Assembly (NCBI GenBank): GCA_947476855.1
Contig: CANJSR010000231.1
Span: forward strand, 1-7,694
Source of the DNA: Acetobacteraceae bacterium
Lineage (GTDB): Bacteria > Pseudomonadota > Alphaproteobacteria > Acetobacterales > Acetobacteraceae
Direction of reading: 5' to 3'
Length of the DNA: 7,694 nt
Shown here: piece by piece, positions 2,376-7,694 of the stretch
Position numbering within the stretch: the stretch's first letter is position 1
Layout: the number at the start of each line of letters is the position of its first letter
The notes under the pieces: generated by a model
What the model saw: only the letters and a program-made list of their open reading frames with translations
What the model was told of the DNA's origin: nothing
Database searches by the model: none
Position numbers and translations under genes: made by a program

Positions 2376-3074
2376 CTAAGCCGCGTCGTGGAAGATGATC
2401 CCCAGCGTCTGCCGCACGCCCGTATGCACCCGGCTCACGCCATGGCGCATCGTGGCGCGGTAGGGGCGGCGGGCGCCCATCGCGGGGCGGTGATGCACCG
2501 GGAAGATCGCCGCCTCCCCCTGCGCCAGGGTCACCACCTCGGCGCGTGACTGCGCGCGGGGGCGTTGTTCCACCAGCAGGAACTCCCCGCCCGTGAAATC
2601 CTCCCCCGGCCGGCTGAGCAGCACCACGACCTGCAAGGGAAACACCAGGTCGCCGTAGAGGTCCTGGTGCAGGCAGTTGAAGCCCCCCGCCTCATACCGC
2701 AGCAGCAGGGGCGTCGGCCGCGTCTGGCCGGCGGCGTGACACAAAGCCAGGTACTCGTCCAGGGTCGGCGGAAAGCTCTCCGGTTCCCCCAAGGTCCGCC
2801 GCCAGGCATTCGCGACAACCGCCAGAGGCGGGTACAACGCGGCCCGCAGCGCGACGATCGGGTCGGGCAGCGGATAGGCGAAATACTTGTATTCGCCCTG
2901 CCCATAGGCCCGCTGCTCCATGATGATGCGCTTGCGGAAGCGGGCATCCTCGCCATACAGGGCCGCGATGGCACCGCAGGTGGCGGGGTCCAGCAAGGGC
3001 ATGGTGGCATAGCCGCGCTGGGCGATGGTCTCGATCAACTGGTTCGGGTCGGGCTGGGTCATGTGCGGCAGCAT
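2376..3074 (-). CDS. 2OG-Fe(II) oxygenase (COG3826-type)
   Basis: A 232-residue protein of the family that uses Fe(II), 2-oxoglutarate and O2 to hydroxylate a substrate that has not been identified. The double-stranded beta-helix core shows the facial triad HQD (H136, D138) in a very conserved block, LHQDLYGDLVFPLQ, followed by DFTGGEFLLVEQRPRAQSR (about 159-177). The distal His is probably H211 in MRHGVSRV, and R221 in TGVRQTLG would bind the 2-oxoglutarate carboxylate (spacing H-x9-R). GEYKYFAYPLPD (60-71) and GQTRPTPLLLRY (116-127) are also typical of this group. The frame is open back to 3161, but the upstream part is low quality. The ATG at 3074 has a weak GGA element 8 nt ahead; the ATG at 3062 is the alternative. 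It lies about 40 bp behind the repeat protein gene on the same strand, so it is probably co-transcribed with it. It may act on a protein or glycan made by that locus (inference). Confidence 0.88.
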   Translation of the reverse strand: MLPHMTQPDPNQLIETIAQRGYATMPLLDPATCGAIAALYGEDARFRKRIIMEQRAYGQGEYKYFAYPLPDPIVALRAALYPPLAVVANAWRRTLGEPESFPPTLDEYLALCHAAGQTRPTPLLLRYEAGGFNCLHQDLYGDLVFPLQVVVLLSRPGEDFTGGEFLLVEQRPRAQSRAEVVTLAQGEAAIFPVHHRPAMGARRPYRATMRHGVSRVHTGVRQTLGIIFHDAA

Positions 3075-3114
3075 AGCGCGAATCCCACCGCCCGCCGCCC
3101 GGTTCTTGCCCTGG

Positions 3115-4197
3115 CTACCGGTAGGTCGTGCGCAGGAAATGCACCAGCGGGTTATGCACATCCGGGCGCATCATCCGCCGGAACCCCCGGCTCGCCCGCC
3201 CCAGATGGCGCCGCCGGTACTCCGCCGCGTTGAACCCGCGCGACGGATCGATATCGGCCAGCGTCCCGGCCTGGAGGTAATGCGCGAAGGGATCGCGGTT
3301 CGGCCCCATCACCTCTGCGAAGCGTTCCACGTACCAGCCCACATCGAACAACGCGTTCGGGCTGACGATCTGCCGCCGCCGGTGCACCAGGTAATGCGCC
3401 AGCGCCGTCTGCCCTGGCGGCACGTCATAGGCCTGCCGGTACCACACAGGATCGAAATAAGGCACCGGCCGCCGCCCCGCCGGCTCCCCCACCAGCACAT
3501 AATGGACGATCGGGTTCATCCGCCGGTGATCGAGGTCTGGGTTCGTCGCGATATACCATTCCGGCGCGAAGTAGACGTTCGGCTGCCGGTTCTCCCGCCA
3601 GCCAAAGCGGCAGTAATGATCGACCGGGTCCAGCCCCGATTCATGCACGTCGGAGGCATTGATCAGATAGTGGTTGGGATCGAGCAGCCCCGACCCGGCG
3701 ACGATCCCCGGATCGGGGGAGCCAGGCAGGCCCAGCCTCGCCTGTTCGTGCAGGAAGCGGTCGAAACGGCGCTGCCCGTCCCAGTACGGCAGCAGGCAGA
3801 CGGCGGCGAGTTCGGCGCAGGGCGCGCGATCCCCCGCCACCCGCTGGCCCAGGAAATCCCGCAGCGCATGGGTCTCCTCCGGCAGGTCATACGACCGCCG
3901 ATACCAGACCGGATCGAACAGCGGATGCGGCCGCCGTCCCTCCTGATCACCATGGCGCAGGTAATGCAGGAAGGGTTCCAGCTCGGCTGCCGCGATATCG
4001 GGGTTTTCCCGCGCGTACCAGGCCAGGTCGAAATAGGGGTTGGGCATCCGCCCCTCCCGCATCCCGAACCGGGCGAAATGCGTGGCCGGGTCCAGCGCCG
4101 CCGCCGCGACGTCGGCATTGTGCGCGAGGTACCAGGCGGGCTCGAACAGGCCGGACCCGACGATCTCGCCAACCAGCGCGGCATCGTCGAGCACCAT
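3115..4197 (-). CDS. FD-WY/HY repeat protein, glycosyltransferase-associated type
   Basis: A 360-residue protein built almost entirely from about eight ~38-residue units of the pattern F-D-x-x-W-Y ... N-P-D ... P-x-x-H-Y-x-x-x-G-x-x-E-x-R-x-P. Units begin near residues 15, 56, 94, 169, 210, 248, 284 and 322. Such units are known to me as accessory segments in large bacterial glycosyltransferase and rhamnan-synthesis-like proteins; here they stand alone with no catalytic domain. Residues 14-116 and 168-270 align without a gap at an exact offset of 154, with about half of positions identical; FDPVWYR occurs at 94-100 and 248-254. The middle segment (about 131-167) breaks the pattern. No signal peptide or membrane helix is visible. 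The ATG at 4197 is preceded directly by an in-frame GTG (4200), a possible alternative start. Only 7 bp separate this ATG from the stop of the upstream TPR/glycosyltransferase gene, and there is no clear Shine-Dalgarno, so translational coupling is likely. The function is unknown. Confidence 0.85.
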   Translation of the reverse strand: MVLDDAALVGEIVGSGLFEPAWYLAHNADVAAAALDPATHFARFGMREGRMPNPYFDLAWYARENPDIAAAELEPFLHYLRHGDQEGRRPHPLFDPVWYRRSYDLPEETHALRDFLGQRVAGDRAPCAELAAVCLLPYWDGQRRFDRFLHEQARLGLPGSPDPGIVAGSGLLDPNHYLINASDVHESGLDPVDHYCRFGWRENRQPNVYFAPEWYIATNPDLDHRRMNPIVHYVLVGEPAGRRPVPYFDPVWYRQAYDVPPGQTALAHYLVHRRRQIVSPNALFDVGWYVERFAEVMGPNRDPFAHYLQAGTLADIDPSRGFNAAEYRRRHLGRASRGFRRMMRPDVHNPLVHFLRTTYR

Positions 4198-4201
4198 CAC
4201 G

Positions 4202-4215
4202 CGGTCAGCCGACCG
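4202..4215 (-). other. Small hairpin across the stop/start junction
   Basis: A 5-bp stem, CGGTC (4202-4206) with GACCG (4211-4215), and a 4-nt loop overlap the TGA (4207-4205) of the TPR/glycosyltransferase gene just before the GTG-ATG start of the repeat protein. With no visible Shine-Dalgarno, this structure could tie translation of the second gene to ribosomes ending the first. The stem is short and could be chance. Confidence 0.3.
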
Positions 4216-5641
4216 GCTCGCCGAACGGGCGCTTCACTGCCTGCTCCAGCGCGCCCCTTACGCGGCCGATCACATCCGCCCAGTCCCCCGGCTTCGGCTG
4301 GCGGAACAGCCGGGCGGAGGGGTACCAGGGCGTCGTCTCCCGATCGAGCAGCCAGCGCCAGTCCGCCGCCTTGGGGATCATGATCCAAACCGGCTTGCCC
4401 ATCGCCCCGGCAAGATGGCCCATCGAGGTATCGACGGTGATGACCATATCCAGGTTCTCGATCACCGCCGCTGTCTCACCGAAGTCGGTCAGTTCGCCGG
4501 ACAGGTCGGTCATGCCGTTGAAGCGGGCGAGGTCGGCGCGGTCGGTCTCCGGCATCGGTTTCTGCAGCGACACGAACACGGCGGGTCCGACACCGGCCAG
4601 CGGCAGAAGCTGCGACAGCGGCAGCGACCGGCGGCGGTCATTCGGATGCGTCGGCCGGCCGGACCACGCCAGCCCGATGCGGCGCACGCCCGCGGGCAGG
4701 CGTTCGGCCAGCTTCTGCCGCCACGCCTCGGCCCGCGCTGGCGGGGCCTTGATGTACGGGATCGGCGTCGGGATCGTGTCCAGACGGGTGCCGAACAGAT
4801 AGGGCAGGCTCGACAGCCGGCAGTTCACCGCATGCCCTGGCACGTCGGTCCAGCGGGAGCAGTACTGTGTCACCCCGGGCATGGCGGCGAGCAGCGGCTC
4901 CATCTCGGCGCTGCATCCCAGGATGATGTCCTGCACCCGTTCGGCGGCGGTGGGGATGTAGCGGGCGAACTGGAGCGTGTCGCCATAGCCCTGGTCACCC
5001 ACCAGCAGCAGCCGCCCCTGCGGGATCCGCATGCCGTTCCACGGCGCGGACGTCATGGCGGGCATCGTGTTCTTCCCCGCCTCGGTCAGGTTGCGCCATT
5101 CATATTCGATCCAGCCAGGCTCGAAATCGCCCATTGCCAGCAGGTTCTGCGCCAGCGCCAGATGCGCGTCGGGGTGGTCGTGCTTGATCCCGATCGCGCG
5201 CAGCAGGCAGGCGACCGAGCGGTCACGGTCATCGGCGTCGGAGAACACGAGCGAGAGGTTGACCAGATGCTCGGGGTTGCCGGGGTCGAGCCGGATCGAT
5301 TCCTGGCCGGCGGCCAGCGCCTCACCAATCTTGTAGGTCTGCCGGCACAGCGCGCTGAGATGCGCCTGCCAGGTCGCGTTGCCCGGCCGCAGCCCGATCG
5401 CCCGCCGCAGCAGGACGATCCCCCGCTCCGGGTCGCCGGCCATCGCGGCCGAGATGCCGAGCAGCGCGATGGCTGAGGGGTGCTCGGGGTTGGCGGCGAG
5501 GACATCGTTGCAGATGCCCATCGCTTCATGCAGGCGCTTGGCCTGGGCGGCGACCTGCGCGCGGGCGAGGGCCTGTTCGGCGGTCTCGCCCCCAGGTTGG
5601 GGCGCGGGCGGGGCTTGCGTGGTCGTGGTGGTGACGCTCAT
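4205..5641 (-). CDS. TPR domain plus glycosyltransferase-9-like protein
   Basis: A 478-residue two-domain protein. After a low-complexity Thr/Pro/Gln leader (1-20), tetratricopeptide-like helices fill about 23-183 (for example AMGICNDVLAANPEHPSAIALLG and AGQESIRLDPGNPEHLVNLSLVFSDADD in adjoining units). The C-terminal half (about 208-468) resembles the heptosyltransferase-like GT9 fold found in many TPR proteins. It has GDQGYGDTLQFARY (215-228), IGLAWSG (322-328), the NDRRR segment (334-338), and the donor-site block ITVDTSMGHLAGAMGKPVW (401-419, with H409), then DWRWLLDRETTPWYPSARLFRQ (427-448). The presumed role is transfer of a sugar from a nucleotide donor, perhaps onto protein or a surface glycan; donor and acceptor are not known. 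The ATG at 5641 has AAGG 7 nt ahead and removes a poor-quality 32-residue extension that would overlap the divergent promoter region. It heads a likely three-gene minus-strand unit with the repeat protein and the 2OG oxygenase. Confidence 0.87.
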   Translation of the reverse strand: MSVTTTTTQAPPAPQPGGETAEQALARAQVAAQAKRLHEAMGICNDVLAANPEHPSAIALLGISAAMAGDPERGIVLLRRAIGLRPGNATWQAHLSALCRQTYKIGEALAAGQESIRLDPGNPEHLVNLSLVFSDADDRDRSVACLLRAIGIKHDHPDAHLALAQNLLAMGDFEPGWIEYEWRNLTEAGKNTMPAMTSAPWNGMRIPQGRLLLVGDQGYGDTLQFARYIPTAAERVQDIILGCSAEMEPLLAAMPGVTQYCSRWTDVPGHAVNCRLSSLPYLFGTRLDTIPTPIPYIKAPPARAEAWRQKLAERLPAGVRRIGLAWSGRPTHPNDRRRSLPLSQLLPLAGVGPAVFVSLQKPMPETDRADLARFNGMTDLSGELTDFGETAAVIENLDMVITVDTSMGHLAGAMGKPVWIMIPKAADWRWLLDRETTPWYPSARLFRQPKPGDWADVIGRVRGALEQAVKRPFGEPVG

Positions 5642-5754
5642 GGCACGACCTTGCCGCCTGGATGGGGGGTTGGGCAAGCAGGGACTCTGTCCGCGGCCTT
5701 CTCCGGTGGATGGGGCTGTGCGATCATGCCACGCCACTCGCTTCGGACATGGTC
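5642..5754. promoter_or_regulatory. Divergent promoter region
   Basis: The 113 bp between the start of the minus-strand TPR/glycosyltransferase gene and the start of the plus-strand epimerase gene must hold promoters for both. No convincing -35/-10 pair is visible. A small GGAC-TCT-GTCC dyad is present at 5682-5692. Confidence 0.4.
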
Positions 5755-6699
5755 ATGCCTCCCGCCGCATCGGATTCCGCGCCGAAGACCTATCTCGTGA
5801 CCGGCGGCGCCGGGTTCATCGGGTCGCATCTGGTCGACGCGCTGCTCGCGTCCGGCCACAGCGTGCGGGTCGTCGACGATCTGTCGAGCGGCAAGCGGGA
5901 CAATCTGGACCCGCGCGCCACCTTCACCCGGGGCGATATCGGTGACGCGCGGCTGATGCGGGACCTGCTGGACGGGGTCGCGGGGTGCTTTCATCTGGCC
6001 GCCATCGCGTCTGTCGCCCGGTGCACCGAGGAATGGACGGCCACCAGTCATACCAACATGGGCGGCACGGTCACCGTGATGGACGCCGCCCGCAAGCAGG
6101 GGGGCGTGCCGGTGGTCTATGCGTCCTCGGCCGCGATCTATGGCGAGCAGGCGGTGCTGCCGATCCATGAGGATTTGGCCCCCCGCCCCCGTTCAAGCTA
6201 CGGCGCGGACAAGCTGGCCGGGGAGTTGCAGGCACAGGCCGCCTTCATCACCCATGGCCTGAGCAGCGTCGGATTCCGGTTCTTCAACGTCTACGGGCCG
6301 CGCCAGGACCCATCATCGCCCTATAGCGGGGTGATCTCGATCTTCGCCAACCGGCTGCGCGCGGGCCAAGCGATCACGATCCATGGCGATGGCGGGCAGA
6401 CGCGGGATTTCATCGCGGTGGCCGATATCGTGCGGTTCCTGCTGGCGGGGATGACACGGGCTCAGGCCGAACCGGGCGCGATCGTGCTGAATGCCTGCAC
6501 CGGCCAGGCGACATCCGTGCGGGAACTGGCCGATCTGCTGGCCCGAACGATCGGGTCCGACGCCGCGATCGGGCATGGGGACGCGCGGTCCGGCGATATT
6601 CGGACCTCGGTCGGCGATCCGGCGCGGGCGCGGGCGATTCTGCGGACCGAGGCGCGGGTCACCTTGGCGGACGGCCTGCGCGCTTTGCTGGACGCCTGA
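5755..6699 (+). CDS. NAD-dependent nucleotide-sugar epimerase/dehydratase (SDR)
   Basis: A 314-residue extended short-chain dehydrogenase/reductase, close to the length of UDP-glucose 4-epimerase-like enzymes. The NAD-binding motif TGGAGFIGSH is at 16-25, an Asp ending the second strand (VVDDLSSG, 39-46) selects NAD over NADP, and the active site has SS (124-125) and YGADK (Y149, K153). RFFNVYGPRQDPSSPYSG (175-192) is the substrate-binding block typical of UDP-hexose and UDP-N-acetylhexosamine epimerases, and HGDGGQTRDFIAVAD (210-224) is the C-terminal signature. The exact sugar cannot be told. The ATG at 5755 has a GGA element 7 nt upstream; in-frame ATGs at 5749, 5710 and 5662 are alternatives with worse support. 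It is divergent from the glycosyltransferase-like operon, which fits a supply of activated sugar for it. No plus-strand terminator with a T-run follows; the gene runs toward the two minus-strand sRNA genes. Confidence 0.9.
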   Translation: MPPAASDSAPKTYLVTGGAGFIGSHLVDALLASGHSVRVVDDLSSGKRDNLDPRATFTRGDIGDARLMRDLLDGVAGCFHLAAIASVARCTEEWTATSHTNMGGTVTVMDAARKQGGVPVVYASSAAIYGEQAVLPIHEDLAPRPRSSYGADKLAGELQAQAAFITHGLSSVGFRFFNVYGPRQDPSSPYSGVISIFANRLRAGQAITIHGDGGQTRDFIAVADIVRFLLAGMTRAQAEPGAIVLNACTGQATSVRELADLLARTIGSDAAIGHGDARSGDIRTSVGDPARARAILRTEARVTLADGLRALLDA

Positions 6700-6716
6700 T
6701 CCCCGCCCGCGGGACG

Positions 6717-6747
6717 AAAAAAAACGGCGGCCCTTGCGGTGCCGCCG
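6717..6747 (-). terminator. Intrinsic terminator of sRNA copy A
   Basis: On the minus strand a perfect 7-bp stem CGGCGGC/GCCGCCG (6741-6747 with 6725-6731) with a 9-nt loop is followed at once by eight T (6724-6717). This is a textbook rho-independent terminator in the minus direction only. Confidence 0.9.
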
Positions 6748-6800
6748 AAGTTTAGGGAGGAAACGTCCAAGAAAGCAGGGCACCGAAGCGCCGCTGCGAG
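6717..6800 (-). ncRNA. ar8/suhB (MmgR)-like small RNA, copy A
   Basis: On the minus strand this ~84-nt segment reads as a complete trans-acting sRNA gene. Near the 5' end is a hairpin GCAG-(C)-GGCGC-UUCG-GUGCC-CUGC (6775-6797) with a stable cUUCGg loop and one G·U pair. Then comes an unpaired stretch holding UUUCCUCCCU (plus-strand 6754-6763), an anti-Shine-Dalgarno-type core, and then the intrinsic terminator. I recognise this layout, core and size as the alphaproteobacterial ar8 family (Rfam suhB), whose S. meliloti member MmgR is about 77 nt and limits polyhydroxybutyrate accumulation. The core would bind ribosome binding sites of target mRNAs, probably with Hfq. The 5' end is estimated from the -10 and may be off by several bases. 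It lies downstream of copy B on the same strand and faces the converging epimerase gene. Confidence 0.82.
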
Positions 6801-6804
6801 ACAA

Positions 6805-6833
6805 ACTATGCCCTTCGCAGGTGCAGCATGCAA
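6805..6833 (-). promoter_or_regulatory. Predicted sigma-70-type promoter of sRNA copy A
   Basis: On the minus strand, TTGCAT (6833-6828) and CATAGT (6810-6805) are spaced by exactly 17 bp. They match three and four of six consensus bases. Transcription would start near 6800, just before the UUCG hairpin. Confidence 0.6.
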
Positions 6834-6841
6834 GCGGTTTT

Positions 6842-6856
6842 TGCTGCGTTGCAGCA
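6842..6856. promoter_or_regulatory. PhaR-like operator palindrome, copy A
   Basis: TGCTGC-GTT-GCAGCA is a perfect 6-bp dyad with a 3-bp spacer, 8 bp upstream of the -35 of sRNA copy A. It contains CTGC-N3-GCAG, the pattern I recall for PhaR, the repressor of phasin genes in Rhodobacter and Paracoccus. Binding by PhaR is inference. Confidence 0.5.
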
Positions 6857-6883
6857 TAATTTTTGAGGCCTGATCGTCGGACG

Positions 6884-6914
6884 AAAAAAAACGGCGGCCC
6901 TTGCGGTGCCGCCG
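6884..6914 (-). terminator. Intrinsic terminator of sRNA copy B
   Basis: The same structure as in copy A: stem CGGCGGC/GCCGCCG (6908-6914 with 6892-6898) followed on the minus strand by eight T (6891-6884). It should stop transcription before copy A, so the two sRNAs are probably separate transcripts. Confidence 0.9.
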
Positions 6915-6966
6915 AAGTTTAGGGAGGAAACGTCCAAGAAGCAGGGCGCCGAAGCGCCGCTGCGAG
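6884..6966 (-). ncRNA. ar8/suhB (MmgR)-like small RNA, copy B
   Basis: The second, upstream copy of the minus-strand sRNA, ~83 nt. The 5' hairpin is fully Watson-Crick here: GCAG-(C)-GGCGC-UUCG-GCGCC-CUGC (6941-6963), with the same bulged C. The single-stranded core UUUCCUCCCU corresponds to plus-strand 6921-6930, and the terminator follows directly. Core and terminator are identical to copy A, so both RNAs should share targets, while the promoters differ slightly (CATGTT against CATAGT at -10), which could give different expression. Family assignment rests on the conserved core, size and fold that I recall for ar8/suhB; Rfam was not run. The 5' end is estimated. Confidence 0.82.
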
Positions 6967-6970
6967 ACAA

Positions 6971-6999
6971 AACATGCTCTTCGCAGGTGCAGCATGCAA
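6971..6999 (-). promoter_or_regulatory. Predicted sigma-70-type promoter of sRNA copy B
   Basis: TTGCAT (6999-6994) and CATGTT (6976-6971) on the minus strand, 17 bp apart. The -10 is weaker than in copy A (three of six consensus bases). The expected start is near 6966. Confidence 0.55.
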
Positions 7000-7007
7000 G
7001 CGGTTTT

Positions 7008-7022
7008 TGCTGCGATGCAGCA
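7008..7022. promoter_or_regulatory. PhaR-like operator palindrome, copy B
   Basis: TGCTGC-GAT-GCAGCA, a perfect 6-bp dyad with a 3-bp spacer, at the same distance (8 bp) upstream of the -35 as in copy A. Only spacer bases differ between copies; the arms are fully kept, as expected for a protein-binding site. Confidence 0.5.
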
Positions 7023-7086
7023 TGTTTTTCGGCCGCCCGGGCGGGCGTTGCAAAAAAGCCACACCCCCCCCCTCGGCGGACCCAGG

Positions 7087-7102
7087 TTTGATCCAGATCA
7101 AA
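7087..7102. promoter_or_regulatory. FNR/FixK-type box upstream of the DUF6455 gene
   Basis: TTTGATCCAGATCAAA is a perfect dyad and matches the TTGAT-N4-ATCAA consensus of the FNR/FnrL/FixK/Anr regulators at all ten fixed positions. Its centre is 63 bp before the ATG at 7158. If it acts as a class II activator site near -41.5, transcription would start around 7136, leaving a leader of about 22 nt. The gene is thus likely induced at low oxygen (inference). Confidence 0.8.
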
Positions 7103-7157
7103 GCCCGTGCGGGAGGAACGCGGCAGCGTGACGCATGCCAGCCTCAAGGAGGCATCC

Positions 7158-7565
7158 ATGCCACACGTCCCCTCCGGAATTGACGACAGCCTGCTCACGC
7201 GGGCGTTTTCCTGGATCATGACCCACCGCACGCAAGAGGGTCGGGTCGCCGGTCTTTCCAATGGCGATCTGCGGAACCTCGCGGCCGACCTCGGTGTGAC
7301 CCAGGCCGATCTGCTGCACGTCCTGCCCGAGGGCACGCCGCCGCGCGACCTGATGGATCAGATGATCCGGGCCCATGGACTCGACCCGGCGGCGATCCGG
7401 GCCCTGCCGACGGCGATGGTGCGGGACTTGGAAGTCACCTGCTCCCGCTGCCAGAACGCCAGCCGGTGTGAACGGGACCTGAAGGCCGGGCAAGCCGCGG
7501 TCAACAGCCCGCATTATTGCGGCAACGCGCCGACCTTCGACGCGATGATCGATGCTCGCGCCTGA
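7158..7565 (+). CDS. DUF6455 family protein, four-cysteine type
   Basis: A 135-residue protein. The N-terminal part holds a helix-turn-helix-like pair, LSNGDLRNLAADLGVTQADLLHVL (33-56), followed by an alpha-helical middle. The C-terminal third carries C95-x2-C98-x5-C104-x16-C121 in the blocks TCSRCQNASRCERDL and HYCGNAPTFDAM. This is the arrangement I know from DUF6455 proteins of alphaproteobacteria; the cysteines may bind a metal ion or an iron-sulfur cluster, but this is not established. No signal peptide is seen, so it is probably cytoplasmic. The start at 7158 is secure: AAGGAGG (7146-7152) lies 5 nt ahead. A longer frame from 7107 would place the Shine-Dalgarno inside the gene and is rejected. 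A perfect FNR box upstream points to oxygen-dependent expression. It appears to be a single-gene unit closed by a terminator hairpin. Confidence 0.85.
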   Translation: MPHVPSGIDDSLLTRAFSWIMTHRTQEGRVAGLSNGDLRNLAADLGVTQADLLHVLPEGTPPRDLMDQMIRAHGLDPAAIRALPTAMVRDLEVTCSRCQNASRCERDLKAGQAAVNSPHYCGNAPTFDAMIDARA

Positions 7566-7593
7566 TCCGAGTCCGCCGCGAGTCTGACGCCCG

Positions 7594-7620
7594 CGACCCC
7601 CGCCGGCAGGGCGGGGGTTG
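7594..7620 (+). terminator. Terminator-like hairpin after the DUF6455 gene
   Basis: ACCCCCGCC (7596-7604) pairs perfectly with GGCGGGGGT (7610-7618) over a 5-nt loop, and the stem can extend by a G·U and a C-G pair. It lies 28 bp after the stop codon. The T-run behind it is poor (TTG), so the terminator may be weak; a TTTT follows only at 7636-7639. Confidence 0.65.
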
Positions 7621-7629
7621 GACGCAACA

Positions 7630-7684
7630 CGCGGCTTTTCCCTGACCCAGACGGCACAGCCGCGGATCGTGGACCGCCGTCCAC
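7630..7684. other. Inverted repeats at the right edge
   Basis: CGCGGCT (7630-7636) pairs with AGCCGCG (7658-7664) across 21 nt, and GTGGAC-CGCC-GTCCAC (7669-7684) is a perfect 6-bp hairpin. No gene is visible in 7621-7694. The structures may belong to an operator or promoter region of a gene beyond the window, but this cannot be judged. Confidence 0.35.
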
Positions 7685-7694
7685 CACGACGGGC

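Follow-up and report, generated by a model that had tools for sequence, protein, structure and literature searches.

A tandem pair of ar8/MmgR-type small RNA genes with predicted PhaR operators in a member of the Acetobacteraceae

The stretch of DNA analysed here, hereinafter the window (7,694 nucleotides of contig CANJSR010000231.1 from an Acetobacteraceae bacterium), contains an intergenic gap of 458 bp (6700-7157) that holds two minus-strand genes of the RF00519 family, a locus that would stay blank under a protein-only annotation. The gap is flanked by a convergent gene for an NAD-dependent sugar epimerase (5662-6699, plus strand; PF01370, E = 3.9e-55; its start codon is provisional) and a divergent DUF6455 gene (7158-7565, plus strand; PF20056, E = 3.5e-9). 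The predicted transcripts, whose ends we place from the promoter position and the T-run, occupy 6884-6966 for the upstream (promoter-proximal) copy and 6717-6800 for the downstream (distal) copy. Ahead of the DUF6455 gene there is also a perfect box, TTGATCCAGATCAA, at 7088-7101, which we take to be of the FNR/FixK type and which suggests a possible oxygen control of that gene, perhaps without extending to the sRNAs; the related locus L001 keeps such a box at 2964 (TTGATCTGGATCAA), and the exact pattern finds no match in a second relative, L004. Elsewhere in the window, a 361-aa frame (3118-4200, minus strand), which displays repeated motifs by eye and returned no match in a Pfam scan, adjoins a TPR/heptosyltransferase-like protein (4205-5737, minus strand).

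Across the whole window, Rfam cmscan recovered just two gathering-level matches, both to RF00519 (suhB, MmgR, ar8; gathering score 41), at 6788-6710 (57.2 bits) and 6954-6877 (56.0 bits) on the minus strand; the model is covered over positions 1-77, and the predicted RNAs, with their inferred ends, measure 83-84 nt. A preliminary description, made from the letters alone, had proposed two near-identical minus-strand units of this family in the gap and had named the suhB covariance model as a check; with both units matched on the minus strand and a 166-167 bp repeat (see below), the pair and its family membership are now computed results. CcsR1 membership was rejected in a scan with laxer limits, where its model scored only 12.8 bits, with a cut-off of 65.3, and matched the opposite strand. 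Up to an E-value of 5 no ar14 match is listed, and no other sRNA family among those listed in the gap comes near its own cut-off, with the proviso that cmscan prints only the best of overlapping families per clan, so that weaker clan mates of suhB would stay hidden.

With the guessed ends, the predicted RNAs fold at -37.2 kcal/mol (6966-6884; z = -3.10, with 0 of 200 shuffles folding as well) and -35.3 kcal/mol (6800-6717; z = -2.62, 4 of 200 shuffles). The UUCG hairpin noted earlier is present in both folds, and in each the conserved core UUUCCUCCCU sits between two hairpins. This core had been described as unpaired; it is mostly open, apart from contact with a weak GGA/UCC pairing of 3 bp. 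Within it, the anti-Shine-Dalgarno core TTTCCTCCCT occupies 6921-6930 in the upstream and 6754-6763 in the downstream copy (minus strand), with identical letters in L001 and L004. Similarly, the intrinsic terminators (6884-6914 and 6717-6747, minus strand) do end in eight T, but their GC stem is not the perfect one first reported, because a bulged A separates 7 bp from 2 bp, the latter closed by a GCAA loop. In an alignment of 16 sequences, namely the window's two and 14 others, the pairing of the first hairpin and the terminator survives changes at several positions with few broken pairs, one terminator pair being CG in 7, UA in 7 and UG in 2 sequences; the core is invariant in this alignment because the 14 were selected for an identical core and following letters.

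Each copy has its own putative promoter, at 6971-6999 (TTGCAT, 17 bp, CATGTT) for the upstream and at 6805-6833 (TTGCAT, 17 bp, CATAGT) for the downstream one, both on the minus strand. The previously claimed -35/-10 boxes with 17-bp spacing are discernible by eye, but they are poor matches to sigma-70, and a consensus promoter scan flagged neither; the putative promoters are supported by the conservation of the region in two relatives, L001 and L004. Eight bp upstream of TTGCAT (-35), each copy presents TGCTGCNNYGCAGCA, which we annotate as a PhaR-type operator: TGCTGCATCGCAGCA at 7008-7022 in the upstream and TGCTGCAACGCAGCA at 6842-6856 in the downstream copy (minus strand). These palindromes, absent from the preliminary description, exactly match the motif CTGCNNNGCAG of Rhodobacter sphaeroides PhaR and the core YGCRNYGCR of the Sinorhizobium meliloti motif (both motifs from PMC12542648), and they are conserved in L001 and L004. 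Allowing up to two mismatches on both strands, they give 4 matches as against a shuffle mean of 0.25, and 0 of 200 shuffles reach 4. In S. meliloti, PhaR is reported to shift the mmgR promoter in EMSA, the palindrome being required, and the site is given as CAATTGTGCACCGCAGCATTA (PMC12542648). That site lies between -35 and -10 (PMC8401924, PMC12542648), whereas the clear site of the window lies upstream of -35; inside the window promoters there is at most a degenerate PhaR site, where a TGC-rich stretch has one base too many for the motif, and the TGC-rich spacer of the upstream promoter is possibly such a second site. Since each copy has a predicted PhaR site, both sRNAs are probably switched by the carbon store. 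In the two closest genomes the full palindrome seldom occurs: G004 has it in one place, the sRNA locus, and G001 in two, the sRNA locus and one other. This other exact TGCTGCRNYGCAGCA of G001 (L220 1501-1515; G001:C131:16733-16747) sits between a pair of divergently oriented reading frames, of which one resembles an ene-reductase by eye.

The tandem duplication (6697-7029) has a unit of 166-167 bp spanning terminator, RNA, promoter and upstream palindrome; repeat comparison recovered it as one segment of 77 nt (91% identity, spacing 167 bp) and one of 91 nt (92%, 166 bp), and the cores of the two copies are identical. Searching with the exact 24-base core matched five contigs with the titles Acetobacteraceae or Rhodopila, Asaia and Ameyamaea, three genera that we take to belong to the Acetobacteraceae. 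L001 (Acetobacteraceae bacterium UBA6159) aligns with the window over 2376-6863 at 95% and over 6879-7692 at 93%, and for L004 (a MAG labelled, perhaps wrongly, Asaia bogorensis) the identities are 75 and 73.5%; both loci have a single sRNA copy where the window has two. The operator, -35 region, core and terminator are retained in all four copies (the window's two, L001 and L004). The L001 copy is a patchwork, agreeing at some sites with the upstream copy and at others with the downstream one, and the three pairwise comparisons among it and the window copies each give 9 substitutions in 151-152 bases. Recombination between direct repeats, or assembly collapse, would be expected to leave such a pattern, and because the L001 copy mixes both window copies, a gain here, a loss there and a collapsed assembly are inseparable. 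It could also be argued that the downstream copy alone is active and that the upstream one is decaying after a chance duplication, since the -10 box CATGTT of the upstream copy (CATAGT in the downstream copy and in L001) and the loss of one base from its linker are both absent from L001 and L004, which are single-copy at the locus. However, the upstream copy keeps its core, operator, hairpins and terminator intact, and the one difference between the first hairpins of the two copies (G-C versus G-U) still pairs. We consider decay unlikely; both copies may be functional and, as the preliminary description proposed from their identical cores, have common targets.

Related genes are widespread. 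In 150 genomes from the family of G002, which we treat as Acetobacteraceae because it is a Rhodopila MAG, 123 have an ar8 match at E 0.001 and 120 one over the cut-off, with 1-8 matches each; the corresponding figures for 190 genomes of its class are 107 and 86. Tandem arrays of two or three copies occur in at least six genomes (the Rhodopila MAGs G002 and G003, and G103, G117, G431 and G559). As in the window, these are direct repeats, mostly with a box per copy; they differ in a core-to-core distance of 169-289 bp, in having up to three copies and, in G002, in one copy without a box. Because adjacent ar8 genes have already been mentioned in print (PMC12559287), the tandem state is not new, and in the window's pair both the family and its arrangement were known before. 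S. meliloti, in contrast, is reported to have a single ar8 gene (PMC12559287). A further parallel is offered by the ar8 siblings SisA-D of Caulobacter crescentus, which, like the window pair, are several to a genome and have a common 10-mer anti-Shine-Dalgarno core; they are sponged by CrfA and, unlike the window's copies with their boxes, have promoters among which the authors report no conserved motif (PMC12559287). As a separate observation, 13 plasmid records match parts of 6700-7030, 12 of them at 80-90% identity and each over less than 80% of its length (Roseomonas 8, Acidiphilium 3, Acidithiobacillus 1, Methylobacterium 1); ar8-like genes may travel on plasmids.

The published PhaR motifs were applied unaltered to 147 ar8 promoters, comprising the window's two and 145 of 157 fetched loci; 11 loci without the core (L017, L018, L021, L022, L024, L028, L029, L030, L031, L033 and L049) were dropped, as was L182 with less than 130 nt upstream, and L032 was kept though below the family cut-off. 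These loci favour high scorers, since they were drawn from among the matches listed, and include several from one genome and many related genomes, mostly of one family. YGCRNYGCR occurs in 122/147 promoters within the interval from -130 to -25 relative to the core, as against a mean of 26.4 in dinucleotide shuffles (largest 33 in 20 rounds) and 14/147 in a control stretch further upstream; with one mismatch allowed, CTGCNNNGCAG occurs in 102/147 (shuffles 17.3, largest 27; control stretch 18). The boxes cluster at about -95, upstream of -35, where both window copies have theirs, and at about -48, within the promoter as in S. meliloti: 55 promoters have the first position only, 13 the second only, 52 both and 27 neither. 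A class-wide sample, from which L255 was dropped, has the box in 24/29 loci versus 6/29 in the control stretch and lacks it in 5/29, counting L242, whose anchor is doubtful (23/28 without it); ten of the 24 box-bearing loci have two boxes, 17-21 bp apart. In seven tandem arrays, the window included, 16 of 17 copies have a box. The remaining copy is at L080, in the G002 tandem pair, where its twin has one, hinting at a divided control of the two.

Taken together, these motif counts make a statistically strong case for PhaR control as a predicted general feature of the ar8 family. Alternatively, the sRNAs might indeed be of the ar8 type with palindromes that are bound by another regulator or act as hairpins, for instance as the terminator of the plus-strand epimerase gene, a role for which the palindrome with its T-run does have a terminator-like appearance (by scan score, at 6842 and 7008 of the plus strand). 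We hold this to be quite improbable: the outer stem bases differ in many relatives and the YGCRNYGCR half-sites stay, the boxes cluster in position relative to the sRNA, and phasin genes too have such boxes ahead of them. Returning to PhaR, we lean, by a little, towards its control being an ancestral, class-wide property of ar8 rather than something peculiar to S. meliloti, with the operator having been shifted, duplicated or lost in different lineages and with tandem copies having one each; the family would then serve the PHB store as its RNA arm throughout the Alphaproteobacteria. A dyad common to mmgR and the PHB genes was reportedly described by Ceizel Borella in 2018, so the newness of the class-wide box is uncertain.

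The distribution of the regulator bears on the same question. phaR (TIGR01848) is found in the relatives G001 and G004. Over the 150 genomes, 116 have both ar8 and phaR, 7 ar8 only, 1 phaR only and 26 neither (uncorrected for phylogeny); for the 190 genomes of the class, again ignoring phylogeny, the counts are 80, 6, 29 and 75 with ar8 over the cut-off and 90, 17, 19 and 64 at E 0.001. Gaps in MAGs blur all these counts. The ar8 gene of G005 (Ameyamaea, L005) is without a box, as expected since that genome gave no phaR match. Against expectation, the box is kept in six of the seven genomes with ar8 only, in which phaR was not found (G038, G043, G069, G079, G098 and G117, with one locus or pair read in each), which runs counter to the PhaR reading; incomplete assemblies may explain them. 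At phasin genes, sampled as 30 loci from 12 searched genomes and reduced to 28 because L210 and L217 were too short, a box lies within 300 bp of the guessed start in 17/28 (100 shuffles: mean 9.4, largest 14), with none in that range at the other 11, and a pair of boxes 56-60 bp apart occurs in 10/28 (shuffle mean 0.12, largest 1, for a spacing picked post hoc). In G001 and in G004, one phasin gene has a box more than 300 bp from the script-chosen start, its letters nearly the same in the two genomes; the second G004 phasin gene (L211) has no box.

The window pair and S. meliloti MmgR have in common the family, the core, the two hairpins and, by prediction here, a PhaR-type control site, and reviews report a PHB and phasin phenotype for MmgR; the pair might thus act exactly as MmgR does, limiting PHB through lowered phasin protein. 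The phasin leaders L195 and L196 from other genomes do pair at -19.8 and -18.5 kcal/mol (under other settings and without a background). However, in the two closest genomes phasin finds no support as a direct target: with likeliest start codons guessed, the G001 and G004 phasin leaders pair with the core at -8.1 and -13.1 kcal/mol, no better than a background of 83 rough gene starts (mean -11.3, sd 3.3). In S. meliloti too, no mRNA is reported to pair directly with MmgR (PMC12559287). Further, G001 has 9 and G004 has 6 exact occurrences of AGGGAGGAA shortly before ATG, compared to 0 and 1 for the reversed pattern, and a Pfam scan of five G004 proteins behind it found no phasin; two TctC receptors, an arylmalonate-decarboxylase-like protein and a beta-lactamase-fold hydrolase are among them. 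We accordingly regard an exact equivalence to MmgR as rather doubtful. At L229, L232 and L234, the frame behind AGGGAGGAA is either very short or cut by the contig end. Orthologous pairs recur among these leaders (L225/L226, L224/L231), which means little because G001 and G004 are too close, and the transport and catabolic flavour of the list amounts to no tested enrichment because the list was selected by pairing. One TctC receptor gene with a AGGGAGGAA leader is divergent to a phasin gene (G004:C1:82056-82317). Of the link to PHB drawn in the preliminary description, then, the input side gains support, with a PhaR-type operator per copy, and direct phasin targeting is unsupported in the two closest genomes. 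Because the phasin leaders are at background and exact AGGGAGGAA leaders lie elsewhere, such as before the two TctC receptors, we think that the PHB link is mainly in the sRNA input; at a guess, uptake and catabolism may form the output.

Our preferred reading, which we consider likely, is that the window carries two independent ar8 units, each equipped with a promoter, a PhaR-type operator and a terminator of its own, which respond to titration of PhaR by PHB and act as anti-Shine-Dalgarno repressors. By analogy with the work on S. meliloti and Caulobacter, where SisA is reported to silence a leader via the same 10-mer core (PMC12559287), PhaR would occupy both predicted operators when no PHB is stored and keep both sRNA genes low; as granules form, PhaR would be drawn to them and the sRNAs would rise. 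Each RNA of about 83 nt would then expose the same core, which, probably with Hfq, would block ribosome binding on purine-rich leaders, the identity of these targets being a guess, and the pair would chiefly increase the dose. Reviews report nitrogen control of S. meliloti mmgR by NtrC, and such a control may add to the PhaR switch.

In broader terms, this offers a testable general rule for a widespread and little-studied sRNA family, namely that its genes sense PHB through PhaR. If true, the PhaR rule would explain how the copies of these genes could multiply and yet stay under one control.
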